Below, in pieces: positions 12,261-60,305 of a DNA stretch of 64,000 bases. This DNA comes from Dongia mobilis (GTDB lineage: Bacteria; Pseudomonadota; Alphaproteobacteria; Dongiales; Dongiaceae). Positions within the stretch are counted from its first letter, which is position 1. Every line of letters starts with the position of its first letter. The notes under the pieces were generated by a model. That model was given only the letters and a program-made list of their open reading frames with translations, had not been told where the DNA came from and made no database searches. The stretch covers positions 1-64,000 of the forward strand of contig NZ_SNYW01000010.1 in the NCBI RefSeq assembly GCF_004363235.1. The letters are read 5' to 3'. Position numbers and translations under genes: made by a program.

Positions 12261-13907
12261 TCATTGGTTTGCGACCTTCCTCTTGGCGAGGAGATTAGTC
12301 AGCCAGTCGGGGTCCATTTCCGGGACCGACGACAACAGAAGCTCAGTATAGGCGGGATAGGGTGGCGAAAGCACCTCCGTCTTTGGCCCCTGCTGGACAA
12401 CCTTGCCCTGGTTCATGACCACGATCTCGTCGGCAATGGCGCGCACGGTCGCGATGTCATGGGTGATGAACATGTAGGAGATATCGAACTCGGCCTGCAG
12501 CCGCAGCAGGAGCTTGAGAATCTCCTCCTGCACGATCTGGTCGAGCGCCGAGGTCACCTCGTCGCAGATAATGAGTTCCGGTTCGGCCGCCAGTGCGCGG
12601 GCGATGCAGACGCGCTGCTTCTGACCGCCGGAGATCTCGCTCGGCAGGCGATCAATGTAGCTTTCGTTGAGCTCGATCATCTCGAGTAGCTCGATGATGC
12701 GCTTCTCCAGCTTGGCGCCGGACAGGCCATGATAGAACTGCAGCGGCCGGCCGATCACGTCATAGATGCGGTGACGCGGATTGAGTGCAGTGTCCGGGCT
12801 TTGGTAGATCATCTGGATGCGGCGCAGCAATTCCTTGTCGCGGTTTTTGAGCGCCGGCGGCAATGCCGCACCATTGAACACGACCTGGCCTCTGCTCGGC
12901 GGCAGCAGGCCGGTGACGACCCGGGCCAGGGTCGACTTGCCGGAGCCGGACTCGCCGACCACGGCGACGGTGCGGCCGCGCGGAATGCGCACCGAGACGT
13001 CGTCCAGGATCTTCACCGCATTGCCGTAGGCGGCATCGACGTGCTCGATGCTGAGGATGGCGTCCTCGTTCGGACTCTCCGGCTTGGCCAGGCCGCGTAC
13101 CGCCCAGAGGGATTTTGTGTATTCCTGCTTCGGCGCGCTCAGCATTTCCCGCGTCGGCGCCTCTTCTACCAGGTTGCCGTAACGCAGCACCATGATGCGA
13201 TGCGCCATCTGCGCCACCACCGCGAGATCGTGGGTGATATAGATCGCGGCCGTGTTGAACTGCTCGACGATCGAGCGGATCGAGGCCAGCACTTCGACCT
13301 GGGTGGTGACGTCAAGCGCCGTGGTCGGTTCGTCGAAGATAATGAGATCGGGCCGGCAGGTCATCGCCATTGCCGTCATGACGCGCTGCAACTGGCCGCC
13401 GGATACCTGATGCGGATAGCGCGCACCGATCGTGGTCGGATTGGGCAGACGCAGCCGGCCATAGAGATCCTGCGCGTCGGCCACGGCCGTTTTTTCATCG
13501 CGGATTCCGTGCTGGGTCTCCGTCTCGATAGTCTGGTCGATCAGGCGGTGTGCGGGATTGAAGGCGGCGGCGGCACTCTGCGCCACATAGGCGATGCGCG
13601 AGCCGCGCAGTTTGCGCTTCGCCTCGTCGCTGGCCGCGATCAAGTCCATGCCGTCAAAGACGATACTGCCGCCGGTGAAACGGCAGCCCGGCCGGACGAA
13701 CCCCATGGCGGCAATGCCGAGCGTCGACTTGCCGGCGCCGGATTCGCCGATCAGGCCCAGGACCTCGCCCCGGCGCAGGGTCAGATCGATCCCCTTGATG
13801 ATCGGATGCCAGACGTCGTCGCTCTCGCCCTCGATCTTGAGGCCGCGCATTTCAAGCAGGACCGAGCCCTTTTCGCGCTGGGGCTGCTTCATGTTGTCAT
13901 TGGCCAT
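12261..13907 (-). CDS. Double ATP-binding protein of a peptide-type ABC transporter (DppD-DppF fusion)
   Basis: 548 residues with two complete ABC ATPase domains. First: Walker A GESGAGKST, signature SGGQLQRV, Walker B LIIFDEPTTALD. Second: GESGSGKST, SGGQKQRV, LIICDEVTSALD. Each is about 250 residues and they correspond to DppD and DppF (or OppD/OppF) fused in one chain. The start ATG at 13907 overlaps the end of the upstream permease gene by 11 bases; the open frame extends further upstream but only through permease sequence. It powers import together with the two permeases. Confidence 0.92.
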   Translation of the reverse strand: MANDNMKQPQREKGSVLLEMRGLKIEGESDDVWHPIIKGIDLTLRRGEVLGLIGESGAGKSTLGIAAMGFVRPGCRFTGGSIVFDGMDLIAASDEAKRKLRGSRIAYVAQSAAAAFNPAHRLIDQTIETETQHGIRDEKTAVADAQDLYGRLRLPNPTTIGARYPHQVSGGQLQRVMTAMAMTCRPDLIIFDEPTTALDVTTQVEVLASIRSIVEQFNTAAIYITHDLAVVAQMAHRIMVLRYGNLVEEAPTREMLSAPKQEYTKSLWAVRGLAKPESPNEDAILSIEHVDAAYGNAVKILDDVSVRIPRGRTVAVVGESGSGKSTLARVVTGLLPPSRGQVVFNGAALPPALKNRDKELLRRIQMIYQSPDTALNPRHRIYDVIGRPLQFYHGLSGAKLEKRIIELLEMIELNESYIDRLPSEISGGQKQRVCIARALAAEPELIICDEVTSALDQIVQEEILKLLLRLQAEFDISYMFITHDIATVRAIADEIVVMNQGKVVQQGPKTEVLSPPYPAYTELLLSSVPEMDPDWLTNLLAKRKVANQ

Positions 13908-14787
13908 CGCGCAACCCGCTTGTCTTGTGGAGGAACCAGTCGACGATGAAATTGATCGCCACGGTAAGAAGGGCAATGGCGCCCGCCGGCAGCAGCGGCG
14001 TGATGTCGCCATAGGTGATGAGCGTCGCCGTCTCCTTCACCATCAGGCCCCAATCGGCAGTCGGTGGCTGCATGCCGAGGCCGAGGAAGGACAGCGAGCT
14101 GATGGTCAAGAAGACGAAGCAGTAGCGCAGGCCGAACTCGGTCACCAGCGGCGGCATGATATTGGGGACGATTTCGCGCAGCACGATCCAGGGCGTCTTT
14201 TCCCCGCGCAGTCTGGCCGCCTCGACAAAGTCGAGCGCCACCACATTCATCGCCACGGCGCGGGTCAGGCGGAAGACTCGCGTAGCGTCGACCAGGCCGA
14301 TCACCAGGATGATGTTGAGGATCGTAGGCTGTTCAAAGATCGCCAGCACCATGAGCGCGAAGATGAGGCTGGGAATTGCCATCACGGCATCGACGAGGCG
14401 GCTGGCCAGCTGGTCGAACCAGCCGCGCAGCAAAGCGGAGACGATGCCGATCAGCCCGCCGGTCAGAAAGGCCACCGCCGTCGCCGCAAAGGCGATACCC
14501 ATGGAATTGCGCGCCGCATAGATCATGCGCGAGAACAGGTCGCGGCCCAGCTGGTCAGTACCGAACAGGAACTCGCTGCTCCAGAGGGCGAACGGCTCGT
14601 CGCTGACCACTTCGGACTCGCCATAGGGGGCGATCCAGGGCGCGAACAGGGCGACGAAGACATAGGCGGCGACCACGATCATGCCGAACCAGGCTGTCAG
14701 CGGCGCCTTGCGCAGCTCACGCAGGATCATCTCGGACTTTGATCGGCGGGCACGGGGTATCTTGGCTTCGGTGCTGGCTGCCGTCAT
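13897..14787 (-). CDS. ABC transporter permease, DppC/OppC type
   Basis: 296 residues. A cytoplasmic N-terminus is followed by a first membrane segment (AWFGMIVVAAYVFVALFAPW), the GTDQLGRDLFSRMIYAARNS segment typical of DppC, and about five further membrane helices. The EAA-like coupling loop is AARLRGEKTPWIVLREIVPN. ATG at 14787 has GGGGG 7 bases upstream; an earlier in-frame ATG at 14802 is less well placed. Partner of the DppB-type permease just upstream. Confidence 0.9.
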   Translation of the reverse strand: MTAASTEAKIPRARRSKSEMILRELRKAPLTAWFGMIVVAAYVFVALFAPWIAPYGESEVVSDEPFALWSSEFLFGTDQLGRDLFSRMIYAARNSMGIAFAATAVAFLTGGLIGIVSALLRGWFDQLASRLVDAVMAIPSLIFALMVLAIFEQPTILNIILVIGLVDATRVFRLTRAVAMNVVALDFVEAARLRGEKTPWIVLREIVPNIMPPLVTEFGLRYCFVFLTISSLSFLGLGMQPPTADWGLMVKETATLITYGDITPLLPAGAIALLTVAINFIVDWFLHKTSGLRDGQ

Positions 14788-14839
14788 GCGCGCCCCCTGC
14801 AAATGAAAATTTCCGGCTTCATTCGTCGCTGCATCGTCC

Positions 14840-15808
14840 TTACCTCGGGTGCAACAGGCGCGGGTTGGTCGAGATCGAGATGATATCGGCGATCAGGTTG
14901 AGCAGGATGTAGGTCGCCGCGAAGATCAGCGCGCAGGCCTGCACCACGGGCATGTCCTTGGTGCGGACGGCGTCCACCATCAACTGGCCAATTCCGGGAT
15001 AGGTGAATACCGCCTCGACGATAACCACGCCAACCACGAGATAGGCGAGGTTGAAGGCGATCACATTGACGATCGGTGCCCAGGCATTGGGCAGGGCATG
15101 GTGCAGGATGACCCGCGACTTGCTGATGCCCTTGAGCCGCGCCATCTCGATATAGGGGCTGGCCAGCAGATTGATGATGGCCGCACGGGTCATGCGCATC
15201 ATGTGCGCGACAATGACCAGCGTCAGGGTGAGCGCCGGCAGGGCACAGCGATAGATTCGTTCCCAAAGCGGGGTGTCCGCATCGACCGAGGCGAGGCTCG
15301 GAAACATCTGCAGCTTGACCGCCAGAAACAGCATCAGGATATAGGCCATGAAGAACTCGGGCATCGAAATCGTCGTCAATGTCACCGAATTCACGATGCG
15401 ATCGAAAGGCGAGTTGCGGTAGAGCGCCGCCAGAATGCCCAGTCCGATCGCCAACGGCACGGCGATAAGCGCGGTCAGGGAGGCAAGGAACAGCGTGTTC
15501 TTGAGGCGTGGCGTGATCAGGTCGGAGACCTGCCGCTTGTAGCCGACGCGGCTGGCAAAGGAGGCGCCGAAATCGCCCTGCACGACATTGCCAACCCAGG
15601 TCACATAGCGAATATGGGCCGGCTTATCGAGGCCGATCTCCTTCTCGAATGCGGCGACCGTTTCCGGGGTTGCCGCCTGGCCCAGGATGCGCTTGGCGAA
15701 ATTGCCCGGCAGCATCTCGATCAGCGAGAAGATGACGAGCGAGACGATAAAGAGGGTTAGGAGGCCGAGTCCCAGGCGCTGAAGGACGGTGCGAAGAATT
15801 GGATGCAT
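14840..15808 (-). CDS. ABC transporter permease, DppB/OppB type
   Basis: 322 residues and about six membrane helices. The N-terminal LRTVLQRLGLGLLTLFIVSL helix, the family's short periplasmic region (IGLDKPAHIRYVTWVGNVVQ), and the coupling loop MARLKGISKSRVILHHALPN are all present. Forms the transmembrane channel with the DppC-type protein. ATG at 15808 is preceded by GGGGGC. A stem-loop lies between this gene and the binding-protein gene upstream. Confidence 0.9.
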   Translation of the reverse strand: MHPILRTVLQRLGLGLLTLFIVSLVIFSLIEMLPGNFAKRILGQAATPETVAAFEKEIGLDKPAHIRYVTWVGNVVQGDFGASFASRVGYKRQVSDLITPRLKNTLFLASLTALIAVPLAIGLGILAALYRNSPFDRIVNSVTLTTISMPEFFMAYILMLFLAVKLQMFPSLASVDADTPLWERIYRCALPALTLTLVIVAHMMRMTRAAIINLLASPYIEMARLKGISKSRVILHHALPNAWAPIVNVIAFNLAYLVVGVVIVEAVFTYPGIGQLMVDAVRTKDMPVVQACALIFAATYILLNLIADIISISTNPRLLHPR

Positions 15809-15877
15809 ATGCCCCCGTCGCCCGAAGGCGACGCCCCCTTGTTCAATTTTCTGGCCGCGCGGCACGCCGGAAAGGAG

Positions 15878-15915
15878 ATCCACGGGACCCCGCCCTGCGA
15901 CAGGATCCCGTGGAT
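15878..15915 (-). other. Intra-operon stem-loop between binding protein and permease genes
   Basis: ATCCACGGGA (15878-15887) and TCCCGTGGAT (15906-15915) form a perfect 10-bp stem with an 18-base loop, just after the stop codon of the binding-protein gene. On the minus strand no T-run follows, so full termination is unlikely. Such hairpins often protect the 3' end of the binding-protein message so that it is more abundant than the permeases. A smaller hairpin (GTCGCC-CGAA-GGCGAC) stands next to the permease start. Confidence 0.6.
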
Positions 15916-15928
15916 TATTAGGCCGATA

Positions 15929-17515
15929 TTACGCGAACCACCAGCGCGACGCGATCTTCATTCCGTCAACATCCCAATTCGACAGCAGCGGTCCGTGGGC
16001 GACCTTCTTAGAATTGGCGCTGACATAGGAATTGAAGACAATGTTGATGAGACCGCCGTCATCGTGCAGCAATTGCTGCATCTCAGCATACATCGCCGCG
16101 CGCTTGTTGGAATCCGTCTCAGAACGAGCCGCAACCAGCAGCTCGTTGAAGCGCGGATTCTTCCAGAACGTGTCGTTCCACGCCGCGTCGGCCGCATAGG
16201 CCGTGGTGAACATCCAGTCCTGGACCGGGCGGCCGTTCCAGTAGGAAGCGACGAACGGCTTCTTCAGCCACACGGCATCCCAATAGGCATCGTCGGCCTC
16301 GCGAATCACGTTGATGTTGATACCCGCCTTTGCGGCACTCTCCTTGAAGAGCGTACCGGCATCGACCGCGCCCGAGAAGGCCGCGTCGGAGACCGACAGG
16401 TCGACCGTCAGGCTGTCGAGGCCGGCCTTCTTCAGGAGCTCCCGCACCTTGTCCGGATTGTAGGAGTGAATCGGCTCGGGGTTGATGGCGTACTGGATGC
16501 TGGGCGCGATCGGATTGTCATTGCCGACCGTACCGTAGCCCAGGAACACCTTCTGCAGGATCTCATCGCGGTCGATCGCATATTTCAGCGCATTGCGCAC
16601 GTCCGGGTTGTCGAACGGCGCCTGCTGGGTATTCATCACGAAGATGTAATGCCCATAGCCGGTGACCTGGTTGATTTCCAGGTCCTGGTTGCGCTTCAGC
16701 ATGTTGATCGTCTTGAGGTCGCAGCGATCCATGAAATGGATCTCACCCGAGGTGAGCGCGTTGGTGCGCGCCGCCACGTCGGCGATGACCTTGACCTCGA
16801 ATTCGTCGAACCAGACATCCTTGTAGAAATTCGGGTTGCGCTTCAGCTTTGCGCCGATACCCGGATCGAAGCTCTCGATCGAGAACGGGCCGGTGCGGTT
16901 GCCGGACTGCCAGTCGACCGTCCCGTCCTGGTTCGCCGGCATGATCGGCAGATGGTAGTCGCTGGCATAGAACGGAAAGTCGGCATTGCCGCCATTGAGC
17001 GTGAAAACAATGTTGTCGCCGTCCGCCTTGATCTCCGCAACGGAGGCCAGGATCGACTTCGCCGCCGACTTTGAATCCGGCCCCATGTGGTGCTTGTAGG
17101 AAGCGACGACGTCATCCGCGGTTACCGTCCGACCATCATGGAACGTCACGCCCTTGCGCAGTTTGAAGACCCAGGTCTTGGCGTCGTCCGATGGCTCGAA
17201 GCTCTCCGCCAGATCGGGGACGACATTGCCCTTCTCGTCCATCTCCGTGAGGCTGTTGGCAGATGCGCCCCAGCCGACGACACCCGTCATCTGGTCGGGA
17301 TAGGTGGCCGGATCGAGCGAATCGGTCGTGGCACCATGGCCGATGCCGATGACGAACTTGCCGCCCTTCTTCGGCTCCTGCGCATAGCCGGCCTTGCTCA
17401 GCACACCGGTTGCCAGCGCGGTTGAGACGCCGAGCGCCGTCGCCCGCCGCATAAAGTCGCGGCGCGAAATGCGCTTGCCGAAGGCAGCGCGCTGCAATTC
17501 TTCCCACTGATTCAT
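15929..17515 (-). CDS. Periplasmic substrate-binding protein of peptide-type ABC transporter (SBP family 5)
   Basis: 528 residues. The N-terminus has a twin-arginine signal (SRRDFM, residues 17-22, then a hydrophobic stretch and a likely cut after A45 in AGYAQE). The mature part has the family-5 pattern: DSLDPATYPDQM, WVFKLRKGVTFHDGRTVTAD and KYAIDRDEILQKVFLGYG. Ligands of the family include peptides, opines, glutathione and nickel complexes; the sequence does not say which. First gene of the five-gene operon with the two permeases, the double ATPase and the CocE-type hydrolase. ATG at 17515 has AGAGG upstream. Confidence 0.92.
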   Translation of the reverse strand: MNQWEELQRAAFGKRISRRDFMRRATALGVSTALATGVLSKAGYAQEPKKGGKFVIGIGHGATTDSLDPATYPDQMTGVVGWGASANSLTEMDEKGNVVPDLAESFEPSDDAKTWVFKLRKGVTFHDGRTVTADDVVASYKHHMGPDSKSAAKSILASVAEIKADGDNIVFTLNGGNADFPFYASDYHLPIMPANQDGTVDWQSGNRTGPFSIESFDPGIGAKLKRNPNFYKDVWFDEFEVKVIADVAARTNALTSGEIHFMDRCDLKTINMLKRNQDLEINQVTGYGHYIFVMNTQQAPFDNPDVRNALKYAIDRDEILQKVFLGYGTVGNDNPIAPSIQYAINPEPIHSYNPDKVRELLKKAGLDSLTVDLSVSDAAFSGAVDAGTLFKESAAKAGININVIREADDAYWDAVWLKKPFVASYWNGRPVQDWMFTTAYAADAAWNDTFWKNPRFNELLVAARSETDSNKRAAMYAEMQQLLHDDGGLINIVFNSYVSANSKKVAHGPLLSNWDVDGMKIASRWWFA

Positions 17516-17675
17516 TTCTTGCCTCTCCCTAACGTCCGCACCGAGCGACACCATGCCGGCCGGTCGGCAAACACCCTGCGATTTGTGGGCCGTCCACGCA
17601 TCGATGGCGGCACCATCTTTTTATCGTCATTCGAGATTATGGCACTGCGTTATGGTTTCTTGATGAATTCCGACA

Positions 17676-17694
17676 TCGCATCATTGGTATGCGA
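17676..17694. promoter_or_regulatory. Dyad upstream of the ABC transporter operon
   Basis: TCGCAT and ATGCGA are perfect 6-base inverted arms separated by 7 bases. The site is 161 bases upstream of the binding-protein start, in an AT-richer stretch (17615-17760). It has the form of an operator for the transporter operon. No regulator gene is adjacent on the same strand. Confidence 0.3.
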
Positions 17695-17735
17695 CATAAT
17701 CACCGGATCGAGAAGGACTTTTCCAACGTTATTCC

Positions 17736-18689
17736 TCAATCGTATGACAACGCAGCCTTTGTTGCGTCGCACAAGTCGGCGAATGCGCCGGCCGCCCGCG
17801 AACTGAGATGGAGCATCCTCAAGAATGTATGGGGCAGGCCCGAAGCACATGTATAACTGCAGGTAATGCCAGCATGACGAAGCCGCCGGGCGTAGTCCTC
17901 GCCATGAAAACGGATCGGGTCCAGTTCTGCCGTCAGGATGTAGGCGGGCGGCAGGTCGACAAGCGATTTGGCAGAAAGCGGCATGGCGTAGGGATTTGCG
18001 CTCAGGTCCTGGCCGCCAAAATAGGCCTGCAAATAATGACTTACCGCGGCCGGCGACATGTCGCCTGACCCGCCGGGCGTCGGAGCGGCGGTCAACGCCG
18101 GGTAGATCAGTGCCTGGAAACGCAGCCTCGGGCCACCTTTGTCCCTGAGCCAAAGGCAGAGAGCCGCCGCCAAATTGCCGCCGGCGCTGTCTCCCGCGAC
18201 GGCGAGGCGCGCCGGGTCAATCCCCTGCCTTGCCCCCTCTTCCCCGGCGAGCCAGTTGACCGCGGCCAGAGCGTCCATCAAGGCATCGGGAAACCGATGC
18301 TCGGGCGACAACCGGTAATCGACATTGAGCACCATAACGCCGGCCCTCTGGCAAAGGCGCGCGGCGGCGATATCGTGGCTCTCAGGCGAGCCCAGGCTCC
18401 AGCCGCCGCCGTGGAAATAGGCCACCGCCGGCAGCGAACCGGTCGCTGCGCCCTCCGGCCGATAGTGCAGCGCCCGAACCGCGCCGGCGGGGCCGGGAAT
18501 GTTGATTTCACTCACGGCGATGCCGGCCGGGCGTGGTGCGTGATAGCGTTGCCAGAACAGATCATAGATGGCGCGCTGCCGATCGATCGGCAGCGCGTCG
18601 AAAGCAGCCGTGAAGGTGGCATCGCTCGCCGCCATGAACTCGGCAATGGCGGCGTCAGCCGGACCTGCGGTCGCCGCAATATCGCTCAT
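17736..18689 (-). CDS. Alpha/beta hydrolase, hormone-sensitive-lipase family esterase
   Basis: 317 residues. HGGGW oxyanion-hole motif (93-97) and GDSAGG with nucleophile S168 mark the HSL or GDXG family of carboxylesterases. The remaining triad residues should be the Asp in AELDPIR and the His in GLPHTF. It is cytoplasmic, with no signal peptide. It likely hydrolyses short-chain esters; the natural substrate is unknown. It is divergent from the GlxA-type regulator at 18818 and upstream of the ABC operon. ATG at 18689 was chosen over the longer frame because the extension resembles non-coding DNA. Confidence 0.85.
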   Translation of the reverse strand: MSDIAATAGPADAAIAEFMAASDATFTAAFDALPIDRQRAIYDLFWQRYHAPRPAGIAVSEINIPGPAGAVRALHYRPEGAATGSLPAVAYFHGGGWSLGSPESHDIAAARLCQRAGVMVLNVDYRLSPEHRFPDALMDALAAVNWLAGEEGARQGIDPARLAVAGDSAGGNLAAALCLWLRDKGGPRLRFQALIYPALTAAPTPGGSGDMSPAAVSHYLQAYFGGQDLSANPYAMPLSAKSLVDLPPAYILTAELDPIRFHGEDYARRLRHAGITCSYTCASGLPHTFLRMLHLSSRAAGAFADLCDATKAALSYD

Positions 18690-18817: not shown

Positions 18818-19810
18818 ATGCCACCGCCCCCAGCCAACGACCAGCCGATGACCATCGGCTTCCTGTTGATGCCGCTCTTCTCGATGATGGCCTTCGTTTC
18901 CGCCGTCGAGCCGCTGCGCGTCGCCAACCGCATGGCCGAGCGTCAGCTGTATCGCTGGGAGGTGCTATCCCGCGACGGCAATCCGGTGACGGCCTCCAAC
19001 AACATGTCGCTCGCGGCGGATCACTCGATTGCCAAGCATCCGCCCTATCCGATGGTGGTAATCTGCGCCAGCTTCAACCCGCTGCGCTATTTCGATGCCG
19101 CGCTCAAGCAATGGCTGCAGCGGCAGAACAGCGCCGGGATCGAGATCGGGGCCATGGATACCGGCGCCTTCCTGCTGGCGCGGGCAGGATTGCTGGATGG
19201 ATACCGTACGACGACGCATTGGGAAAGCCTCGACAGCTTCTCCGAAGCCTTTCCCAAGGTCGAGGTCGAGAATGCGCTCTATGTGATCGACCGCAACCGC
19301 TGGTCCTGCGCTGGCGGCACCGCCGCCCTTGATCTGATGCTGCACATGATCCGGCGGCAGCACGGGCATCGCCTTGCCGCGGCGGTCTCCGAGCAATTCA
19401 TTCATCCCGAGATCCGCGGCGCGGAGAGCCGACAGCGCATGGAGCCCAAGGAGCGCCAGGGCATCAGCCATGCCGGTCTCAACCGCGTCATCAAGCTGAT
19501 GGAATCGCGCCTCGAGGACCCGGTCAACAGCACGGTCCTGGCCAAGACCGCCGGCCTGTCGCTGCGCCAGCTCGAACGCCTGTTCGACAAGCATTTCGGC
19601 ATGTCGCCGCGACGCTACTACCTCGATCTGCGGCTGCAGCGGGCGCGCTCGATGCTGCAATATACCGACATGTCGATCGTCGAGGTGGCCGTCGCCTGCG
19701 GCTTCGGCTCGGCGGCGCATTTCTCGCGCTCCTATCACGGCTGGGCCGGCAAGGCACCCAGCGCGGAGCGGCGCCGGCCGGCACTCGGCATCATGCCGGC
19801 GATGCGCTAG
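18818..19810 (+). CDS. GlxA/AraC-family transcriptional regulator, probable carnitine regulator (CdhR-like)
   Basis: About 330 residues. The N-terminal DJ-1/PfpI-like domain (about 10-190) carries the GAMDTGAFLLARAGLLDGYR segment, and the C-terminal AraC domain (about 220-320) has the double helix-turn-helix ending with CGFGSAAHFSRSYHGWAGK. This architecture is that of CdhR, GbdR and SouR of Pseudomonas, which sense carnitine, betaine and sarcosine. Its place just upstream of the dehydrocarnitine and carnitine genes suggests it activates them in response to carnitine. The start is uncertain: 18818 or 18848. Confidence 0.85.
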   Translation: MPPPPANDQPMTIGFLLMPLFSMMAFVSAVEPLRVANRMAERQLYRWEVLSRDGNPVTASNNMSLAADHSIAKHPPYPMVVICASFNPLRYFDAALKQWLQRQNSAGIEIGAMDTGAFLLARAGLLDGYRTTTHWESLDSFSEAFPKVEVENALYVIDRNRWSCAGGTAALDLMLHMIRRQHGHRLAAAVSEQFIHPEIRGAESRQRMEPKERQGISHAGLNRVIKLMESRLEDPVNSTVLAKTAGLSLRQLERLFDKHFGMSPRRYYLDLRLQRARSMLQYTDMSIVEVAVACGFGSAAHFSRSYHGWAGKAPSAERRRPALGIMPAMR

Positions 19811-19824
19811 CGGCGGGGAATGGA

Positions 19825-20475
19825 ATGACAGAGATCTCCACAGCCTTCCTCGCCGTCTTCATAGCCATCTTCCCGATCGTCAACCCGCCGGGCATGGCGC
19901 CCTTCTTCATCAGCGCCACGGCCGGTTGCTCGCCCCGCATACGCAGTGAGTTTGCCGGCCGGATCGCGCTCAGCTGCTTTCTGATCATGGCCGTCTCGCT
20001 CTTTGTCGGCTCCCATGTGCTGGCATTCTTCGGCCTTTCGCTGCCGGCCGTGCAGATCGGCGGAGGCCTCGTCGTCATGTCGACGGGCTGGCAATTGCTG
20101 CACAGGGTGAAAGCGCCCAGGCCGGACGCCGTCGACCATGCTGGCTCCGACGCTGGCATCCAGCAGCAGTGGTTCGTGCCGCTCACCATGCCGATGACGG
20201 TCGGCCCGGGTACGATCTCGGTTGCCATCACGCTGGGGTCACGTGCCGCGGGCGCACCGGGATTTTTCCTTCTGGCCCTCGGCGGTGTTGCCGCCCTGCT
20301 CACCATCACCTTCCTCATCTATGTCTGCTACCGCTATGGCGAGACCATCCTCAACCGGCTGGGCGCCGGCGGTGTCGATGTCGTGCAGCGCCTGGCGGCT
20401 TTTATTCTGCTCTGCCTCGGCGTGCAGATCGTCATCAACGGGGTTGTGGGGCTGCGGGCCAGCGGCCTGCTGTGA
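19825..20475 (+). CDS. MarC family integral membrane protein
   Basis: 216 residues and about six membrane helices with the MarC signature FPIVNPPGMAPFFI near the N-terminus, GGGLVVMSTGWQLL, PLTMPMTVGPGTISV in the second repeat and an IVINGVVGL end. The family is widespread with no proven transport substrate; the old link to antibiotic resistance was not upheld. It begins 14 bases after the regulator gene and so may share its transcript, but no role in carnitine use is known. Confidence 0.88.
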   Translation: MTEISTAFLAVFIAIFPIVNPPGMAPFFISATAGCSPRIRSEFAGRIALSCFLIMAVSLFVGSHVLAFFGLSLPAVQIGGGLVVMSTGWQLLHRVKAPRPDAVDHAGSDAGIQQQWFVPLTMPMTVGPGTISVAITLGSRAAGAPGFFLLALGGVAALLTITFLIYVCYRYGETILNRLGAGGVDVVQRLAAFILLCLGVQIVINGVVGLRASGLL

Positions 20476-20615
20476 ATGGCGAAATTAGTCAAACGCTTGT
20501 CGGAATGCGTCAACCCGTCGCAACCCCGCCGCGCCAGCATCGCCGCCAGCCAAGAATCCCCAATGGACATCCCGGGTCAAAGACCTGACCAAGTCGCAAG
20601 GAAAGAGCCAAACCC

Positions 20616-21506
20616 ATGAATTACGAAGTCATCGTCACCTGTGCCGTCACCGGTGCCGGCGATACCGTCGGCAAGCACCCCGCCATTCCGGTGACCCCGA
20701 AGCAGATCGCCGATGCCGCCATCGAGGCCGCCAAGGCCGGCGCCACCGTTGCACATTGCCATGTGCGCGACCCCGAAACCGGCAAGGGCAGCCGCGACGT
20801 CAACCTCTATCGCGAGGTCGTGGACCGCATCCGCTCCTCGGGCACCGATATCATCATCAATCTGACGGCCGGCATGGGCGGCGATCTCGAGATCGGCCCG
20901 GGCGAGGAGCCGTTCAAATTCGGCAAGGCCACCGATCTGGTCGGCCCGATCACCCGCCTCGCCCATGTCGAGGCGCTGCTGCCGGAGATCTGCACGCTCG
21001 ACTGCGGCACGCTCAATTTCGGCGACGGCGACTATACCTATATCTCGACCCCGAACATGCTGCGCGCCGGTGCCAAGAAGGTGCAGGAACTGGGCGTGAA
21101 GCCGGAACTGGAGATCTTCGACACCGGCCATCTGTGGTTCGCCAAGCAGATGCTGAAGGAAGGCCTGCTCGACGCCAACCCGATGTTCCAGCTTTGCCTC
21201 GGCATCCCCTGGGGCGCTCCGGCCGACACCACCACGATGAAGGCAATGGTCGACAATCTGCCGGAAGGCGCCATCTGGGCCGGCTTCGGCATCGGCCGCA
21301 ACCAGATGCCGATGCTGGCGCAGGCGCTGCTCCTGGGCGGCCATGTGCGCGTCGGGCTCGAGGACAACATTTGGCTCGACAAAGGCGTCCATGCCTCGAA
21401 CGGTTCGCTCACCGAGCGTGCCTGCGAGATCATCACCCGCCTCGGCGCCCGGCCGCTGACCCCGGCCGAGGGTCGCAAGAAGCTCGGCCTCAAGGCGCGC
21501 GGCTAA
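20616..21506 (+). CDS. cdhC: 3-dehydrocarnitine:acetyl-CoA trimethylamine transferase (BKACE family)
   Basis: 296 residues, DUF849/BKACE family (beta-keto acid cleavage enzymes). The zinc-binding HCH (47-49 in [11 protein letters not shown]), the conserved [10 protein letters not shown] loop, the NLTAGMGG strand and the RVGLEDNIW segment near the C-terminus are present. In the carnitine pathway this enzyme joins dehydrocarnitine and acetyl-CoA to give betainyl-CoA and acetoacetate. Other BKACE enzymes act on 3-keto-5-aminohexanoate; the carnitine assignment rests on the adjacent carnitine dehydrogenase and thioesterase genes. AAGGAAAG lies upstream of the ATG. Confidence 0.88.
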
Positions 21507-21531
21507 CCCGTCTCTTCAAGGACACAGCATC

Positions 21532-22491
21532 ATGATCACCAACATCAAGAAGTGCGCCGTCATCGGCACCGGTGTCATCGGCTCCGGCTGGGCCGCGCGC
21601 TTTCTCGCCGCCGGTCTCGACGTGGTTGCCTGGGATCCCGGCAAGGGCTCGGAAGAGCAACTCCGCAAGAATGTCGCCAATGCCTGGCCAGCCCTTGAAA
21701 AGGTCGGCCTGAAGCCCGGCGCCTCGCAGGGCCGCTTGAGCTTCGTCGCCACCGTCGAGGAAGCGGTGAAGGATGCCGATTTCATCCAGGAATCGGCGCC
21801 CGAGCGCGAGGATTTGAAGCTGAAGCTGCACGCCCAGATCACGGCGGCGGCAAAGCCCGACGCGATGATCGGTTCCTCCACCTCCGGCCTGCTGCCGTCC
21901 GATTTCTACAAGGACGCAAAGCACCCCGAGCGCTGCATGGTCGGCCATCCGTTCAACCCGGTCTATCTGCTGCCCCTCGTCGAGGTCTGTCCCAGCAAAT
22001 GGACCTCGCCGGAAGCGGTGCAGGCCGCGATCGCATTCTACAAATCGCTCGGCATGCGCCCCTTGCATGTGCGCAAGGAAGTTCCCGGCTTCCTCGCCGA
22101 CCGCCTCCTCGAGGCCGTGTGGCGCGAAGGCCTTCATATGGTGAAGGACGGCTATTGCACCACGGGCGAGCTGGATGATGCGATCCGCTTCGGCTTTGGC
22201 ATCCGCTGGTCGTTCTTCGGCATGTACATGATCTATCACATGGCCGGCGGCGAAGCCGGCATGCGTCATTTCCTGGAGCAGTTCGGCCCGGCGCTCGATC
22301 TCCCCTGGACGCATCTGAAGGCGCCGCCGCTGACCGACGACCTCATCGACAAGATTGTCGAGGGGACCGAGGCCCAGGCGGGCAAGCATTCGATCAAGGA
22401 CCTCGAGCGACTGCGCGATGATTGCATCATCTCGGTCATCAACGCGATCACCGAGGCCAAGGCCAAGCACGGCTGGAAGTACGAGGACTGA
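21532..22491 (+). CDS. cdhA: L-carnitine dehydrogenase
   Basis: 319 residues, 3-hydroxyacyl-CoA dehydrogenase fold. NAD-binding motif GTGVIG (12-17), acidic D34 ending the second strand, the SSTSG segment, [14 protein letters not shown] with the catalytic histidine and a C-terminal helical domain starting at VPGFLADRL. It oxidises L-carnitine to 3-dehydrocarnitine with NAD. It lies 25 bases after the BKACE gene and 4 bases before the thioesterase gene. In some rhizobia this enzyme is fused to the thioesterase; here the two are separate. Confidence 0.9.
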
Positions 22492-22495
22492 CAGG

Positions 22496-22993
22496 ATGAG
22501 CGCCCTGCCCCACCCCGTCGCGCTCAAGCCGCATCGCGAGGTGGTCCGGCCCGAATGGGCCGATTACAACAACCACCTCAACGATGCCTTCTACCTAGTC
22601 ATCTTCAGTCACGCGACCGACCATATGATGGACCAGATCGGGCTCGACGCGGCGGGGCGGGAGCGCAGCAACCATTCGCTGTTCACGGCCGAGCTGCACC
22701 TCAACTATCTGAAGGAGGTGAAAGCGGGCACGGAAGTGCGCGTGGAGACGACGTTTCTCGGCCATGACGCCAAGCGCCTCCACATCTTTCATACGATGTA
22801 TGTCGGCGACGGCACCGAGCCGGTCGCGACCAACGAGCAGATGCAGCTCTCGATGGACATGACCGGCCCGCGCGTCGCCCCGTTTCAGCCCGACGTGCTG
22901 GCACGCATCGAGGCCATTGCCGCCGAACACGCCAAGCTGCCGCGACCGCCACAGATGGGTCGCGCGATCGGAATGCCGCCTAGAAAAGGGTGA
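22496..22993 (+). CDS. cdhB: Betainyl-CoA thioesterase (hotdog fold)
   Basis: 165 residues, 4HBT-type hotdog thioesterase. The catalytic segment is WADYNNHLNDAFYLVIFSHA, matching the family pattern with the active-site Asp or Asn near the start of the long helix. Within the carnitine pathway it would release glycine betaine from betainyl-CoA. The ATG at 22496 has AGG immediately upstream, overlapping the dehydrogenase stop region, which points to translational coupling. The open frame extends to 22355 only within cdhA. Confidence 0.82.
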   Translation: MSALPHPVALKPHREVVRPEWADYNNHLNDAFYLVIFSHATDHMMDQIGLDAAGRERSNHSLFTAELHLNYLKEVKAGTEVRVETTFLGHDAKRLHIFHTMYVGDGTEPVATNEQMQLSMDMTGPRVAPFQPDVLARIEAIAAEHAKLPRPPQMGRAIGMPPRKG

Positions 22994-22998
22994 CGAAC

Positions 22999-24159
22999 AT
23001 GAACTTCGGACTGACCAGCGAGCAGCAGATGCTCGTCGAGGCGACGCGCGCCTTCGTGGAAGCGGAACTTGTACCTTACGAGAACGAGGTCGAGAAGACC
23101 GACCATGTTCGGCCGGAACTCATCAAGCAGATCCATGCCCAGGCGATCAAGTCGGGATTCTACGCCGTCAACATGCCGGAGGAACTGGGCGGCGGCGGGC
23201 TCGATCATTTCGCCTTTACCCTGTTCGAGCGGGAACTCGGCCGCACCTCCTTCGCCCTGCAATACGCGGTGCATCGCCCTTCCAACATCCTGCGCGCCTG
23301 CAATGACGAGCAGAAGGAGCGCTATCTGCTGCCCACCATCCGCGGCGAGCGGGTGGAATGCCTTGCCATCACCGAGCCCAATGCCGGGTCCGACGTGCGC
23401 TCAATGCAGACCCGCGCGGTCCCGGAAGGCGACGATTTCGTCATCAACGGCACCAAGCATTTCATCTCCTACGCGGATGTCGCGGACTACATCATCCTCT
23501 TCGCCTCCTCCGGCATCGAGGACACCAAGCGCGGGCCGAAGCGGCTGATCACCAGCTTCCTGGTCGACAAGGACACGCCAGGCCTCGAGGTGCGCATGGG
23601 CTCGCGCTCGGTCAGCCATCGCGGCTTCCATCATTGCGAACTTGTCTTCAACAACTGCCGAGTGCACAAGCGTCAGGTGCTGGGCGAGGTGCATCACGGC
23701 TTCGACGTCGCCAATACCTGGCTGGGTGCGACACGCCTGACCGTGGCGGCGCAATGCGTCGGCCGGGCGCAGCGGGCGATGGAGATGGCGACCCAGTGGG
23801 CGGCCACCAGGAAGCAGTTCGGCCAGACCATCGGCAAGTTCCAGGGCGTCTCGTTCAAGCTCGCCGACATGGCGACCGAGATCGAGGCGGCCAACCTTCT
23901 GGTCCTGCAGACCGCCTGGAAAACGGCGGAGGGCACCGCCCAGGACCAGGATTACGCCATGGCCAAGCTCTATGCGACCGAGATGCTCGCCCGCGTCACC
24001 GACCAGGCCGTGCAGATCTTCGGCGGCATGGGGCTGATGGAAGAAACCGGGATCGAGCGCTTCTGGCGCGACGCACGCGTCGAACGCATCTGGGACGGCA
24101 CCTCGGAAATCCAGCGCCACATCATCTCGCGCGCGGTACTGCGCCCGCACGAGGCCTGA
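22999..24159 (+). CDS. Acyl-CoA dehydrogenase, probable role in betaine-CoA metabolism
   Basis: 386 residues, standard three-domain acyl-CoA dehydrogenase. It uses FAD to introduce a 2,3 double bond into an acyl-CoA. Motifs: CLAITEPNAGSDVRSMQTRA (flavin-contacting loop), QIFGGMGLMEETGIERFWRD (C-terminal helices) and RIWDGTSEIQR, where the usual catalytic glutamate is an aspartate. Given the CaiD-like gene next door, the substrate may be gamma-butyrobetainyl-CoA, giving crotonobetainyl-CoA; glutaryl- or other acyl-CoA cannot be excluded. ATG at 22999 has AAAGGGTG upstream; a GTG at 22990 is an alternative. Confidence 0.85.
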   Translation: MNFGLTSEQQMLVEATRAFVEAELVPYENEVEKTDHVRPELIKQIHAQAIKSGFYAVNMPEELGGGGLDHFAFTLFERELGRTSFALQYAVHRPSNILRACNDEQKERYLLPTIRGERVECLAITEPNAGSDVRSMQTRAVPEGDDFVINGTKHFISYADVADYIILFASSGIEDTKRGPKRLITSFLVDKDTPGLEVRMGSRSVSHRGFHHCELVFNNCRVHKRQVLGEVHHGFDVANTWLGATRLTVAAQCVGRAQRAMEMATQWAATRKQFGQTIGKFQGVSFKLADMATEIEAANLLVLQTAWKTAEGTAQDQDYAMAKLYATEMLARVTDQAVQIFGGMGLMEETGIERFWRDARVERIWDGTSEIQRHIISRAVLRPHEA

Positions 24160-24172
24160 ATCGGACAGAAAC

Positions 24173-24213
24173 AAAAAAGGCCGGGAAGCACCCCCTTCCC
24201 GGCCCGTTTTCGT
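24173..24213. terminator. Bidirectional intrinsic terminator
   Basis: A perfect 10-bp stem (24179-24188 with 24195-24204, GGCCGGGAAG and its complement) and a 6-base loop, with AAAAAA on the left and GTTTTCGTT on the right. It lies between the convergent acyl-CoA dehydrogenase and caiD genes and can end transcription from both sides. Confidence 0.85.
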
Positions 24214-24229
24214 TCTGGGTGGATTGAGA

Positions 24230-25027
24230 TCAGCCGCCCTTGAAATCTGCTTTACGCTTTTCGGCGAATGCCTTGACGCCTTCCTTGGCATCGGCCGATT
24301 CATCCGCCGCCTCATAGGTCTTCATGGTGCCGGAACGGATCAGGTCGAAGCTCGCCCGGATGGATTTGTCCTCCATTTCGCGGACACATTCCTTGAGCGC
24401 CTGGACGGTGATCGGGGCGCCGGTGGCGATGAGGTCGGCCCATTCGCGCGCCGCCTCCATCAGCTTTTCCTTCGGCACCACCTTGTTGACGAAGCCGTAA
24501 TGCGCGGCCTCTTGCGCCGGCATGCGGCGGCCGAGCAGCAGGATCTCCATGGCGATGTTGTGCGGCAGGCGCTTCGGCAAACGCTGCACGCCGCCGGAAT
24601 CCGGCACGATGCCGAGCGGCAGTTCGGGCAGTGAAAACTCGACATGCTCGGCCGCAATCACCAGGTCACAGGCCAGCGCCAGTTCCCAGCCACCGCCGAT
24701 GCACAAGCCATTGACGGCCGCGATCACCGGCTTGTTGAGATCCCAGAGTTCGGTGAGGCCGGCGAAGGAGCCTGGGCCGTAATCATGCTTCCACCACTTG
24801 CCGACCAGGTTCTGGGCGGCAGCGGCCTTCAAATCCCAGCCGGCCGAGAAGATTTTCTCACCGGCGGCGGTCACGATGCCAACGCGCAGGTCCGGGTCGT
24901 CGCGCAATTCACAGAACGCATGCCCCAGCGCGCGTGACGTCTCGATGTCGATCGCGTTTACCTTGGGCCGGTCCAGCGTGATTTCCAGCACATGGCCACG
25001 GCGCACTTTCTTCACGGCTTCGGACAT
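24230..25027 (-). CDS. caiD: Carnitinyl-CoA dehydratase / crotonobetainyl-CoA hydratase (CaiD-like)
   Basis: 265 residues, enoyl-CoA hydratase/isomerase (crotonase) fold. It matches CaiD in the long stretch around the active site: FSAGWDLKAAA, GSFAGLTE, KPVIAAVNG and LGIVPDSGGVQRLPK, which holds the catalytic acidic residue region. It interconverts crotonobetainyl-CoA and carnitinyl-CoA. It is convergent with the acyl-CoA dehydrogenase gene, sharing the terminator between them. ATG at 25027 has GAAGGGGG upstream. No CaiB-type CoA-transferase or CaiC ligase is seen in this window, so the CoA-activating partner must lie elsewhere. Confidence 0.85.
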   Translation of the reverse strand: MSEAVKKVRRGHVLEITLDRPKVNAIDIETSRALGHAFCELRDDPDLRVGIVTAAGEKIFSAGWDLKAAAAQNLVGKWWKHDYGPGSFAGLTELWDLNKPVIAAVNGLCIGGGWELALACDLVIAAEHVEFSLPELPLGIVPDSGGVQRLPKRLPHNIAMEILLLGRRMPAQEAAHYGFVNKVVPKEKLMEAAREWADLIATGAPITVQALKECVREMEDKSIRASFDLIRSGTMKTYEAADESADAKEGVKAFAEKRKADFKGG

Positions 25028-25153
25028 GAGACCCCCTTCATCCTGAACGGCAATTGACCTGACCCGACGTCTGCATAGGCGGGGGTTCAGGCTCTCAAGT
25101 GACGAATTTCGACAAGAGAATGACCTTTTTCGCCGCAGCAATTGGCCGGCAGA

Positions 25154-35153: not shown

Positions 35154-36685
35154 GTTCGGCGCGGGAGAAACTCAGGCTCGTCAAGTCCGAGCCGAGTGCC
35201 AACCGCCAGCCGAGTGCCGACCAGATCAAGCAGATCTTCGCGCAAAGGCTGTTCGATTTCTCCTCGCCACTCTACATGGTTGATCGCCAGGGGCGTGTCA
35301 CCTGGTCCAACCTGCCCTATCGGCAATTGGGCGAACGCCTTGCGCTGCGCGACGGGCCGGCCTCCCTCCTGCCGCTGACCGAAATGCTGCTGCGGGCCGA
35401 AAGCAGCCATCGCGTGATCCGTCGCGACGTGCAGGTCGTGCTGGATGGCCGCCAGCACACGCTGCATGCCCATCATGTGGCGCTGACCGACCGGCAGGGA
35501 CGCCATACCGGACTTGCCGGCCTGATCGAGCCGATTGACGGCACGGCGGAACTGCAGATCGAACTCGCCCGCGCCCATGAGCGCTTCGATGACATCGTTC
35601 GCCTCACCTCCGACTGGGTGTGGGAGACGGATGTCGACCTCACCGTGACACTGATCTCCGAACGCGTCACCAAGGTGCTCGGCTATCTGCCGCAGGAATT
35701 GCTGGGCAAGCCGCTCTGCGATCTCGCCGATAACGACGCGGGGCGACGCGCGCTCAGACGGCGCTGCGGCAGCCTGACGCCTTTCCGCGACCATCATTTC
35801 GAGGCACTGACAAAATCGGGTGAGGCGCGCCTGTTCCTGCTCTCCGGCGTGCCAGTCTTCAACCAAGACACCGGCGCCCATCTGGGCTTCCGCGGCACGG
35901 CCAGCGACATCACCGAGTTGATGCGGCGCGAGATGTCACTCATCCAGGCAAAGGAATCGGCCGAGATGGCCAACAAGGCCAAGTCGGACTTCCTTGCCAA
36001 TATGAGTCACGAATTGCGCACGCCGCTCAATTCGATCATCGGCTTTGCCGATCTGCTGGCGGCACAGTTGCAGGATGGCGGCATGGCGCCCATCACGCCC
36101 GACCGAGCCCGCGAATACGCCGCCGATATCCAGACCAGTGCTCAGCACCTCCTCGCCATGATCAACGACATCCTTGATCTCTCCAAGATCGAGAGCGGCC
36201 GCCTGATGCTGAACGAGGAGGAAATTTCCGTGCCGCTGTTGTGCGAGCCGGCGATCCGCATGATGGCGGATCGCGCCCGTGCCGCCGATCTCGCCCTGAC
36301 AACCGAATTTCCGGCAGATCTGCCGCTGGTCATTGTCGATCACCGCCTGACGCGCCAGATCCTCCTCAACCTGCTCTCCAACGCGGTCAAGTTCACCCTG
36401 CAGGGCGGCCAGGTCACCCTTCGCGCCTATCGCGGCGAGACCGGCGACCTGGTGCTTGAAATCGAGGATACCGGCATCGGCATCCCGGAGCAGGATATTG
36501 ACCGGGTGCTGGAACCCTTCGTGCAGCTGGAATCCCATCGAGCCAGGCGATTTGGCGGGACCGGCCTCGGCCTCGCCCTCAGCCGCCGCCTCGCCGAACT
36601 GCATGGCGGCCGCCTTACATTGATCAGCACGCCCGACAAGGGCACAACCGTCGGCCTGCACATTCCGCCAGAGAGACTGCGCTAG
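35150..36685 (+). CDS. PAS-domain sensor histidine kinase, soluble
   Basis: 511 residues without membrane segments. Two PAS-like domains (about 30-125 and 140-260), then the HisKA domain with the phosphorylated histidine H287 in NMSHELRTPLNSI, and the HATPase_c domain with N box (NLLSNAVKFT), G1 box (EDTGIGIP) and G2 box (GGTGLGLALS). It would autophosphorylate and pass phosphate to a response regulator that is not in this window. It is translationally coupled to the DUF2336 gene and convergent with the polyamine deacetylase-like gene, overlapping its end by 4 bases. Confidence 0.93.
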   Translation: MSSAREKLRLVKSEPSANRQPSADQIKQIFAQRLFDFSSPLYMVDRQGRVTWSNLPYRQLGERLALRDGPASLLPLTEMLLRAESSHRVIRRDVQVVLDGRQHTLHAHHVALTDRQGRHTGLAGLIEPIDGTAELQIELARAHERFDDIVRLTSDWVWETDVDLTVTLISERVTKVLGYLPQELLGKPLCDLADNDAGRRALRRRCGSLTPFRDHHFEALTKSGEARLFLLSGVPVFNQDTGAHLGFRGTASDITELMRREMSLIQAKESAEMANKAKSDFLANMSHELRTPLNSIIGFADLLAAQLQDGGMAPITPDRAREYAADIQTSAQHLLAMINDILDLSKIESGRLMLNEEEISVPLLCEPAIRMMADRARAADLALTTEFPADLPLVIVDHRLTRQILLNLLSNAVKFTLQGGQVTLRAYRGETGDLVLEIEDTGIGIPEQDIDRVLEPFVQLESHRARRFGGTGLGLALSRRLAELHGGRLTLISTPDKGTTVGLHIPPERLR

Positions 36686-37716: not shown

Positions 37717-37776
37717 GACCGACTCCGCTGCTGCGCAGGCAGCATCGGGCGGCGGAGCCGGTTCTGGCAAGCCCCG

Positions 37777-41237: not shown

Positions 41238-41347
41238 GGGCGGGGATTCCAATGTCGCTCGGTTGCGGCTAGAAGTGGCTGATTGGGGGATCGACGGGCT
41301 TGAGACAATCCGCCATCTCCATGATTAATTACGACAGGTAGCATGCC

Positions 41348-58327: not shown

Positions 58328-58333
58328 GGGTAT

Positions 58334-58338
58334 CCTCC
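58334..58338 (-). promoter_or_regulatory. Ribosome-binding site deciding the GTG start of the GbdR-like gene
   Basis: GGAGG on the minus strand, 6 bases before GTG at 58327. No comparable site precedes the other in-frame candidates, so this sets the start. Confidence 0.7.
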
Positions 58339-58388
58339 GGAGCGAATGGCTGGCCAAAGCGGCGAGCGGACGCCAATTATCGTATTTC

Positions 58389-58398: not shown

Positions 58399-58742
58399 TC
58401 CATAGGCAAAATGGCGCGACGGGAACATTTAATCATACCAATGGTCAAGATTTTCTGATCCGCTGATGTCGCAGCTTGCTCCGTCCAATTTCCTGTATCG
58501 GCGTGCAAATGTACCCGGCAGCCCCAATTTCTTCGGGGATTTGGTTGCCGCTGAAGCGGCCGCCCCACCTGTTCCTGGCTGCCCTCTCTGCGACGCCTTG
58601 ACCGGCGGCGTTAACGGGACAATAGATGGCGCGGCATCGGCGGAATCCGCTGGCCCGTCTTGCCATGATCCGGCGTCATCGATATTGCAGTGCAAAATCC
58701 GGCCTGGACCACGACATCCTCGCCACCCCATTCGGGATCGCC

Positions 58743-59996: not shown

Positions 59997-60013
59997 GCGA
60001 GAGACATACCCAC

Positions 60014-60304
60014 ATGCTTCTCATTTCCTGCCCCTATTGCGGACCCCGCGACGAGCACGAATTCTCCTATGGCCACGAGGCGCATATCGCGCGCCCGACG
60101 CTGGAGCAGCAGCAGACCATGTCGGATGCGGAATGGGCCGACTACCTGTTCATGCGAAAGAACCCCAAGGGCGTCCATTTCGAGCGCTGGGTCCATAGCC
60201 GCGGCTGCCGCCAATGGTTCAACGTCGCGCGCCACACGGTGACGCACGAAATCATCAAGGTCTATCCGATGGGCGAGCCGGCCCCGAACCTGGAGCAGAA
60301 GTAA
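60014..60304 (+). CDS. soxD: Sarcosine oxidase subunit delta
   Basis: 96 residues. The zinc-binding start CPYCGPRDEHEFSYGHEAHI and the tail with SRGCRQWFNVARHTVTHEI are typical; the cysteines and a histidine bind structural zinc. It lies 17 bases after soxB, and its stop is separated from soxA by a single base. Confidence 0.93.
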   Translation: MLLISCPYCGPRDEHEFSYGHEAHIARPTLEQQQTMSDAEWADYLFMRKNPKGVHFERWVHSRGCRQWFNVARHTVTHEIIKVYPMGEPAPNLEQK

Positions 60305-60305
60305 C

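Follow-up and report, generated by a model that had tools for sequence, protein, structure and literature searches.

A putative CdhR-type regulon through which Dongia mobilis may use gamma-butyrobetaine and carnitine aerobically, with a displaced NDP-forming acyl-CoA ligase as the proposed activating enzyme

The stretch of DNA analysed here, called the window, covers 64 kb from the start of contig C5 (304,967 bp) in the 4.19 Mb genome of Dongia mobilis (G000). It holds an operon with genes for a BKACE, an L-carnitine dehydrogenase (CDH), a thioesterase (TE) and an acyl-CoA dehydrogenase (ACAD), a convergent gene for a CaiD-type hydratase (caiD) and, 14 kb from these carnitine genes, a gene for an NDP-forming acyl-CoA ligase. 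Operator-like tandem repeats with a 21-bp period are present before the operon, before caiD and before the ligase gene. From these genes and repeats we infer substrates, regulator binding and an induction that would together make up one CdhR-type regulon for aerobic use of gamma-butyrobetaine (GBB) and carnitine, running from GBB over carnitine to glycine betaine. We consider this the probable explanation, and our confidence in it is good rather than high because the tandem form of the repeat was not chosen blind and a matrix for single sites missed the ligase. The route from GBB to glycine betaine is already known from rhizobia; what is unusual here is the layout, with the ligase set apart.

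In the proposed pathway, GBB would be taken up by a peptide-type ABC transporter (12261..17554), joined to CoA by the NDP-forming ligase (39117..41252) and oxidised to crotonobetainyl-CoA by ACAD (22990..24159). The CaiD-type hydratase (24230..25027) would add water to give L-carnitinyl-CoA, as its family and both catalytic glutamates suggest, and TE may free carnitine from this ester. Carnitine would then be oxidised to 3-dehydrocarnitine by CDH, and BKACE would convert 3-dehydrocarnitine and acetyl-CoA to betainyl-CoA and acetoacetate, which we take to be the reaction of this family. TE would release glycine betaine from betainyl-CoA, and the acetoacetate would pass for activation to an acetoacetate-CoA ligase encoded elsewhere in the genome, on contig C7. 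The regulator (18848..19810) is predicted to bind the 21-bp-period repeats and to co-induce the BKACE operon, caiD, the ligase gene and perhaps the transporter genes.

Carnitine operon and linked CoA-ester genes

A sequence-only reading of this stretch had named seven genes, a regulator, MarC, BKACE, CDH, TE and ACAD on the plus strand and a CaiD-type gene on the minus strand, and all seven were recovered as open reading frames (ORFs) with matches to Pfam or NCBIfam models. The features on which the argument depends here are as follows.

18848..19810, plus strand: CdhR/GbdR-like AraC-family regulator with a DJ-1/PfpI-like N-terminal domain (PF12833, PF01965; start inferred)
20616..21506, plus strand: BKACE (PF05853, 333.1 bits)
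21532..22491, plus strand: L-carnitine 3-dehydrogenase, CDH (NF005471, 562.7 bits, above the cut-off of 414)
22496..22993, plus strand: 4HBT hot-dog thioesterase, TE (PF13279)
22990..24159, plus strand: acyl-CoA dehydrogenase, ACAD, proposed GBB-CoA dehydrogenase (CaiA model NF002885, 200.8 bits, below the cut-off of 540)
24178..24205, both strands: terminator-like hairpin between ACAD and caiD
24230..25027, minus strand: proposed CaiD-type crotonobetainyl-CoA hydratase (best model NF002936, 333.2 bits, below the cut-off of 500)

The family assignments of CDH, BKACE and TE agree with the earlier view that these are genes from carnitine to glycine betaine with a CoA-ester part. BKACE, CDH, TE and ACAD are spaced as in an operon (25 bp, 4 bp, then an overlap of 4 bp), and caiD is convergent to it, 70 bp past the ACAD stop codon; terminator-like hairpins such as the one in this gap were at chance level in the scan (6 found against 5.8). 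The enzymes of a GBB pathway are accordingly found as CDH, as BKACE and a hot-dog thioesterase in one operon, and as a linked ACAD and CaiD-type hydratase. The AraC-type regulator with its amidotransferase-like N-terminal domain adjoins the operon, and direct repeats with a 21-bp period lie upstream of it, both as in a CdhR regulon; the regulator scores 368.4 bits with the NCBIfam GbdR model, below the cut-off of 480, and is presumed to be a sensor of carnitine or GBB.

The CDH residues H139 and E151 are present and both are invariant in an alignment of 11 rows. TE aligns with positions 346-493 of 495 in the model of the fused carnitine 3-dehydrogenase (NF005716), that is with its C-terminal part, and its substrate is probably betainyl-CoA and also carnitinyl-CoA. 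ACAD shares about 63% identity with its counterpart in the carnitine clusters of rhizobia. The hydratase has both catalytic glutamates (E115 and E135, 20 apart), and is called CaiD-type rather than CaiD proper because it stays below the NF002936 cut-off. As a separate observation, residue 369 of ACAD is an aspartate in the motif IWDGTSE; in the rows that show the right motif, to which the comparison was restricted, aspartate is found in 18 of 20 (the window included) and glutamate in two, and R. etli also has aspartate. The corresponding position in SCAD and MCAD holds the catalytic glutamate.

Among the 17 genomes of the family comparison, 15 have a CDH ortholog (55% or more identity), and 13 of the 15 carry ACAD no more than about 2 kb away from it, so that the linkage of the two genes is more than chance. 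A caiD relative is found within about 8 kb of CDH in nine of the 15, G000 included. In the others the contig ends (G006), the gene is on another contig (G001), no close copy is near (G013 and G014), or a convergent ACAD-caiD pair lies elsewhere than CDH (G015 and G016). An upstream pair of ACAD and enoyl-CoA hydratase genes in G013 and G014 was considered as a counterpart and rejected, being about 34% identical and part of a cluster with an AMP-binding-family ligase, and it looks unrelated. G002 is without CDH and has caiD as well as an ACAD that is cut by a contig end, and its CDH was therefore probably lost to assembly; the other genome without CDH (G010) is 68% complete.

The pair of ACAD and CaiD is no mere companion of CDH, since both are absent from 79 of 80 named CDH loci, which are those of Pseudomonas, Burkholderia and Paraburkholderia. 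At least 580 stretches were confirmed, of which these 80 are the best; about a dozen of the 80 end at contig ends, and P. aeruginosa itself is not among the listed rows of the 79. The single exception is a genus-mate, Rhodospirillaceae bacterium R-7. The window BKACE is 76-88% identical to the CDH-adjacent BKACE of the 79 loci. This distribution suggests that the carnitine genes and the CoA-ester genes are two modules, which came together in alphaproteobacteria. In a class comparison of 190 genomes, 19 have a close ACAD (E 1e-130), counting the window genome and two genus-mates, and 15 of the 19 have a CaiD relative (E 1e-65) on the same contig within about 4 kb. An NDP-forming ligase gene lies between or directly beside the two in 11 of the 15, the window genome and its two mates being among the four without. 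Relatives of CaiD (71%), ACAD (66%) and the ligase (47%) stand in one gene run in G174, and similar gene sets lie close together in Pseudooceanicola, Paracoccus and other alphaproteobacteria.

The cluster on plasmid pRetMIM1b of Rhizobium etli Mim1 resembles the window in having a regulator, BKACE, CDH, TE, ACAD, an NDP-forming ligase, a CaiD (carnitinyl-CoA dehydratase) and a peptide-type ABC transporter. Unlike the window, it is one contiguous stretch in which CDH and TE are fused and the regulator is divergent. The sequence-only reading was right that CoA-ester genes are present, but it took them for a second branch of enteric type; the R. etli run and the other alphaproteobacteria make it more likely that they provide the earlier half of a single linear aerobic route. 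ACAD/CaiD and the carnitine genes would probably be consecutive stretches of this route rather than two branches. Its suggestion that GBB or crotonobetaine is used is the likely meaning of the gene set, which occurs in one run in R. etli.

In S. meliloti, GBB is reportedly converted to glycine betaine via CoA esters, carnitine dehydrogenase, BKACE and thioesterase. Compared with that reported pathway, CDH and TE are separate here, caiD is convergent and the ligase gene is displaced. A passage of PMC12482172 cites the S. meliloti pathway study (Bazire et al. 2019) for a dual-function dehydrogenase. The caiX-cdhCAB-hocS genes of P. aeruginosa with CdhR, as presented in an excerpt of PMC5806209, are like the window in BKACE, CDH, thioesterase, a linked hydrolase and a tandem operator with a 21-bp period. 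The likeness to caiTABCDE of E. coli, of which caiB, caiC and caiD were seen in the comparison, lies in the CaiD-type hydratase (54% identical to E. coli CaiD) and in an acyl-CoA dehydrogenase of the same superfamily. The E. coli system is anaerobic and reductive, relies on CaiB/CaiC for activation and is not known to include a carnitine dehydrogenase.

Operator-like repeats and the displaced ligase

An alignment of promoters within the genus revealed a block common to the upstream regions of BKACE and caiD. The operator core typed from it matches the window perfectly at just two places, 103 bp upstream of BKACE and 72 bp upstream of caiD; when up to three mismatches are allowed, there are nine matches against 1.6 expected. 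A half-site matrix was made from 10 promoters (five of BKACE, five of caiD) and applied as pairs 21 bp apart; L017, a locus from the same genus (G004), was excluded from the training because its sites match poorly. The sites obtained, and the ligase gene, are given below.

20477..20514, plus strand: tandem 21-bp-period operator-like site of the BKACE operon (training site, 45.0 bits)
25098..25135, minus strand: tandem operator-like site of caiD (training site, 35.5 bits; upstream half weak, 12.4 against 23.1 bits)
41299..41336, minus strand: tandem operator-like site of the ligase gene (not in training, 34.1 bits)
17659..17696, minus strand: operator-like site before the ABC operon, with one good half only (not in training, 21.2 bits)
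C7:127543-127580 (L012 1003-1040; L194 7543): operator-like site before an acetoacetate-CoA ligase gene (26.8 bits, the best outside the window in 1.2 Mb)
39117..41252, minus strand: NDP-forming acyl-CoA ligase, proposed GBB:CoA ligase of BcoAB type (PF13380+PF13607+PF13549; first ATG at 41237)

The ligase site ranks third among 127,926 window positions, while the maximum of 12 Markov controls was 16.8 bits. Six ligase loci from other genomes of the genus (14-20 kb each) all have their top-ranking site in the ligase promoter, with 16.8 to 24.5 bits. When spacings of 15-27 bp were tried on the window, the next best (18 bp) peaked at 25.9 bits against 45.0 bits for 21 bp. BKACE promoters outside the training set rank first or second in eight of 10 family loci, and the position of the ABC site ranks second or third at the same place in four other genus genomes. 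Over 1.264 Mb the ranking was BKACE, caiD, ligase, acetoacetate-CoA ligase and ABC operon, followed by a site of 20.7 bits; a site of 20.0 bits falls inside the ligase gene. This sample is about 30% of the genome and is non-random, comprising the window, the rest of C5, C7 from 40 kb, the first 200 kb of C1, C2 and C3, and chosen stretches of C1, C8, C9 and C10. The stretches of C7 from 60 kb on were added once L012, a locus taken for its AMP-binding domain, had shown the site before the acetoacetate-CoA ligase gene. According to a part of PMC5806209, consulted after the matrix was built, CdhR of P. aeruginosa binds GGTCGC-N15-GGTCGC, which also has a 21-bp period. A common operator offers a way, from sequence alone, to search this family for dispersed genes of quaternary-amine catabolism.

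The acetoacetate-CoA ligase on C7 scores 934 bits with TIGR01217 (cut-off 520.9), and could use the acetoacetate formed as by-product of BKACE. Its site is no more than suggestive, because it stands 158 bp ahead of the start codon and runs into what is likely the beginning of a divergent gene, by eye for an EamA-type transporter. The resulting prediction is that acetoacetate released by BKACE would be handled by a co-regulated acetoacetate-CoA ligase. Among the matches listed from the openly licensed literature (titles and abstract starts), none reported an alphaproteobacterial operator of this kind or a carnitine regulon that contains an acetoacetate-CoA ligase.

With the ligase of the R. etli cluster as query, four relatives were found in the genome, the best being window positions 39135-41183 (E 4.5e-156, against 3.1e-56 for the next). 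The two proteins are 43% identical and share the three domains CoA_binding_2, Succ_CoA_lig and ATP-grasp_5. A 100/100 split in the ligase tree places the window ligase with the cluster ligases on a side of 37 rows, and the three other ligases of the genome opposite; within the 37 rows it stands in a family-specific group (98/100) and not beside R. etli. At least one relative of the ligase is present in each of the 17 family genomes. The ligase matches 150 plasmid records at E 1e-80, of which 123 belong to Rhizobium, and in three records that are also listed for ACAD, from R. etli CFN 42 and R. phaseoli (NZ_CP013538 and NZ_CP013559), the ligase match begins 38 bp past the end of the ACAD match. 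BcoAB of S. meliloti is described in a part of PMC8364193 as an ATP-dependent GBB:CoA ligase. With the right family, the right side of the tree and a similar operator, but encoded 14 kb away, the product of 39117..41252 is a candidate GBB:CoA ligase.

The sequence-only reading was also correct that the window has no CaiB or CaiC (none of the two CoA-transferase family III and 10 AMP-binding matches in the genome falls inside it), but it overlooked this ligase. The genome check for CaiB/CaiC that it had asked for, with both CoA-transferases and five of the 10 AMP-forming ligases scanned, gave nothing over cut-off. The CoA-transferases at C5:212940 and C5:265885 were rejected as CaiB (120.8 and 128.4 bits against a cut-off of 413), and fit models of oxalate/dicarboxylate transferases better, also below cut-off. 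The best of the five AMP-binding proteins scanned reached 208.2 bits against the CaiC cut-off of 651, and the five others were dismissed on inspection by eye, as Acs, PrpE, the acetoacetate-CoA ligase (later confirmed by the family model), a FAAL-like and an Aas-like protein. The proposal removes the apparent gap in CoA activation, which would mislead annotation: these bacteria would use an activating enzyme unlike CaiB/CaiC, whose gene can lie apart from the others.

The gap between ACAD and caiD of relatives was likewise considered as a place for a ligase; in the two cases scanned a large protein was found instead (G007 with Ig/cadherin and DUF4114 domains, G005 with DUF4114). Large ORFs of 793 to 1932 aa are seen in this gap in several relatives (L015 12399-15254, L014 5329-7710, L019 12453-17081 and L021 12709-18507) and are absent from the window.

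Weighing of the proposed regulon and its alternatives

Several results weigh against a single regulon. The 21-bp tandem form was picked after the ligase promoter had been viewed, and the test was thus blind for sequences and not for form. A single-site 25-mer matrix finds BKACE and caiD, while the ligase is not among its top six in the window; this matrix ranks the ligase site second at best in a ligase locus, and 10 mononucleotide shuffles reach 18.1. No operator was found before the ligase in any of six loci outside the genus (L120, L122, L123, L124, L127, and L154, there before the first gene of a CaiD-ACAD-ligase run). By the tandem matrix the BKACE operator was missing from two of the 10 other family loci (G015 and G016) and from R. 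etli, the tandem ranked first before caiD in just one of eight loci outside training, and it was top before the gene of the substrate-binding protein (SBP) in none of five. The site before the ABC operon, at 21.2 against 20.7 bits for the next, is barely above background.

The enzymes themselves add to these points. ACAD and CaiD are below the cut-offs of the CaiA and CaiD models, as are their R. etli counterparts, and in the trees the window ACAD, CaiD and ligase each form groups of their own outside those of R. etli. The window CaiD joins the CaiD of parallel clusters (99/97), treated below, and not that of R. etli. All three trees were midpoint-rooted with duplicates removed; the CaiD and ACAD trees omit matches below 225 and 330 residues, and the ligase tree those below 450, hence the ligases of L134 and L135, which are cut by locus ends. 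Given this grouping, the rhizobial enzymes may not be one-to-one orthologs, and a slightly different betaine substrate is possible. Genes similar to GBB hydroxylase (TIGR02409) are also present in the genome, at C9:190285-191343 and C10:175906-176970, and may offer a parallel route. Finally, the class-V aminotransferase and the histone-deacetylase-like gene grouped with the ligase were not seen in carnitine clusters.

Some of these observations would fit a situation in which only the carnitine part is real, with a different short acyl-CoA as the substrate of ACAD and CaiD, and with the ligase at 39 kb serving an unrelated acid tied to its aminotransferase and deacetylase-like neighbours. The 79 Pseudomonas/Burkholderia-group loci have CDH and BKACE, and nearly all TE, without ACAD or CaiD; the neighbourhood of the ligase is conserved in the genus and is not carnitine-related; and the separate tree groups and the lack of an operator before the ligase outside the genus point the same way. 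We nevertheless regard this alternative as unlikely. ACAD overlaps TE by 4 bp, the operator-like repeat precedes both caiD and the ligase, and ACAD, CaiD and ligase genes travel together in other genomes. In G016, where CDH is not near ACAD and caiD, the locus has its top site (19.9 bits) before ACAD, although this is not so in G015, where ACAD carries none.

The two neighbours of the ligase lie downstream on the same strand:

37777..38967, minus strand: class-V aminotransferase
36682..37770, minus strand: histone-deacetylase-like amidohydrolase

Adjacency of ligase and aminotransferase, and the gene order, are kept in five of six other genus loci. Because the ligase heads this same-strand group (36682-41252) under a carnitine-type operator, both enzymes might belong to the pathway and feed it with GBB from an amino-acid precursor, acylated or N-methylated, which they would release or de-aminate, and the regulon would then span from precursor to glycine betaine, acetoacetate salvage included. 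This extension is quite doubtful.

We find it very unlikely that GBB is converted to carnitine by a 2-oxoglutarate-dependent hydroxylase encoded elsewhere, leaving ACAD and CaiD to serve crotonobetaine or a related compound. The two TIGR02409-like genes noted above are in favour of this, but with 376.5 bits (C9) and 252.9 bits (C10) both are below the cut-off of 414.75, no operator of 14.8 bits or more was found in C9:160001-220000 or C10:165001-185000, and crotonobetaine alone would need no ACAD. That ACAD works reductively like CaiA of E. coli, from carnitine to GBB, is hardly credible; the weak match to the CaiA model is in its favour, but the match is below the cut-off, no CaiB is over cut-off, and the gene is linked to an oxidative carnitine dehydrogenase operon.

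Neighbouring genes and steps after glycine betaine

Further genes around the operon are the following.

19825..20475, plus strand: MarC family membrane protein (PF01914), between the regulator and BKACE
17736..18689, minus strand: alpha/beta hydrolase (PF07859), candidate short-chain acylcarnitine hydrolase
12261..17554, minus strand: peptide-type ABC transporter (SBP 15929-17554, SBP_bac_5; permeases 14840-15883 and 13897-14802; ATPase 12261-14012)

MarC is probably a passenger, since nothing matching it turned up in 14 CDH loci from the rest of the family. Relatives of the hydrolase follow the thioesterase in CDH loci of the Burkholderia group and of several Pseudomonas. The transporter, relatives of which lie within the R. 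etli and Paracoccus clusters, is a candidate importer of carnitine or GBB; the carnitine operon of P. aeruginosa has a transporter of another type.

Parallel clusters with a CDH-like enzyme (43-52%), a ligase, usually a CaiD-like gene and often BKACE were seen in L028 (G000:C8, about 32.5-36.4 kb), L121, L131, L134, L135, L155 and L159. L134 and L135 additionally have an aldehyde dehydrogenase, an LLM flavoprotein and RidA. These clusters perhaps degrade a related betaine.

Production strains of HK4 type, near Rhizobium, which make carnitine from GBB, have long been known, as stated in an excerpt of PMC2131755. The enzymes proposed here are possibly of interest for the manufacture of L-carnitine from GBB.

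Genes that may act after glycine betaine are found towards the other end of the window.

49189..50727, minus strand: MttB-superfamily methyltransferase (PF06253, 676 bits; one uninterrupted ORF of 512 aa)
57323..58357, minus strand: second GbdR-like regulator (GbdR model, 431.6 bits, below the cut-off of 480)
58626..63921, plus strand: sarcosine oxidase genes soxB, soxA and soxG (TIGR01373 and TIGR01372 over cut-off; TIGR01375 138.8 bits, below the cut-off of 143.95)

The MttB-family enzyme is non-pyrrolysine, as its single uninterrupted ORF indicates. The family includes glycine betaine methyltransferases, according to a part of PMC12478193, and the product is possibly one of these; nine other ORFs scanned between 44.1 and 55.2 kb had no corrinoid-protein domain. 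The sarcosine oxidase genes, among which soxD is expected at about 60.0-60.3 kb, would provide the last steps after glycine betaine.

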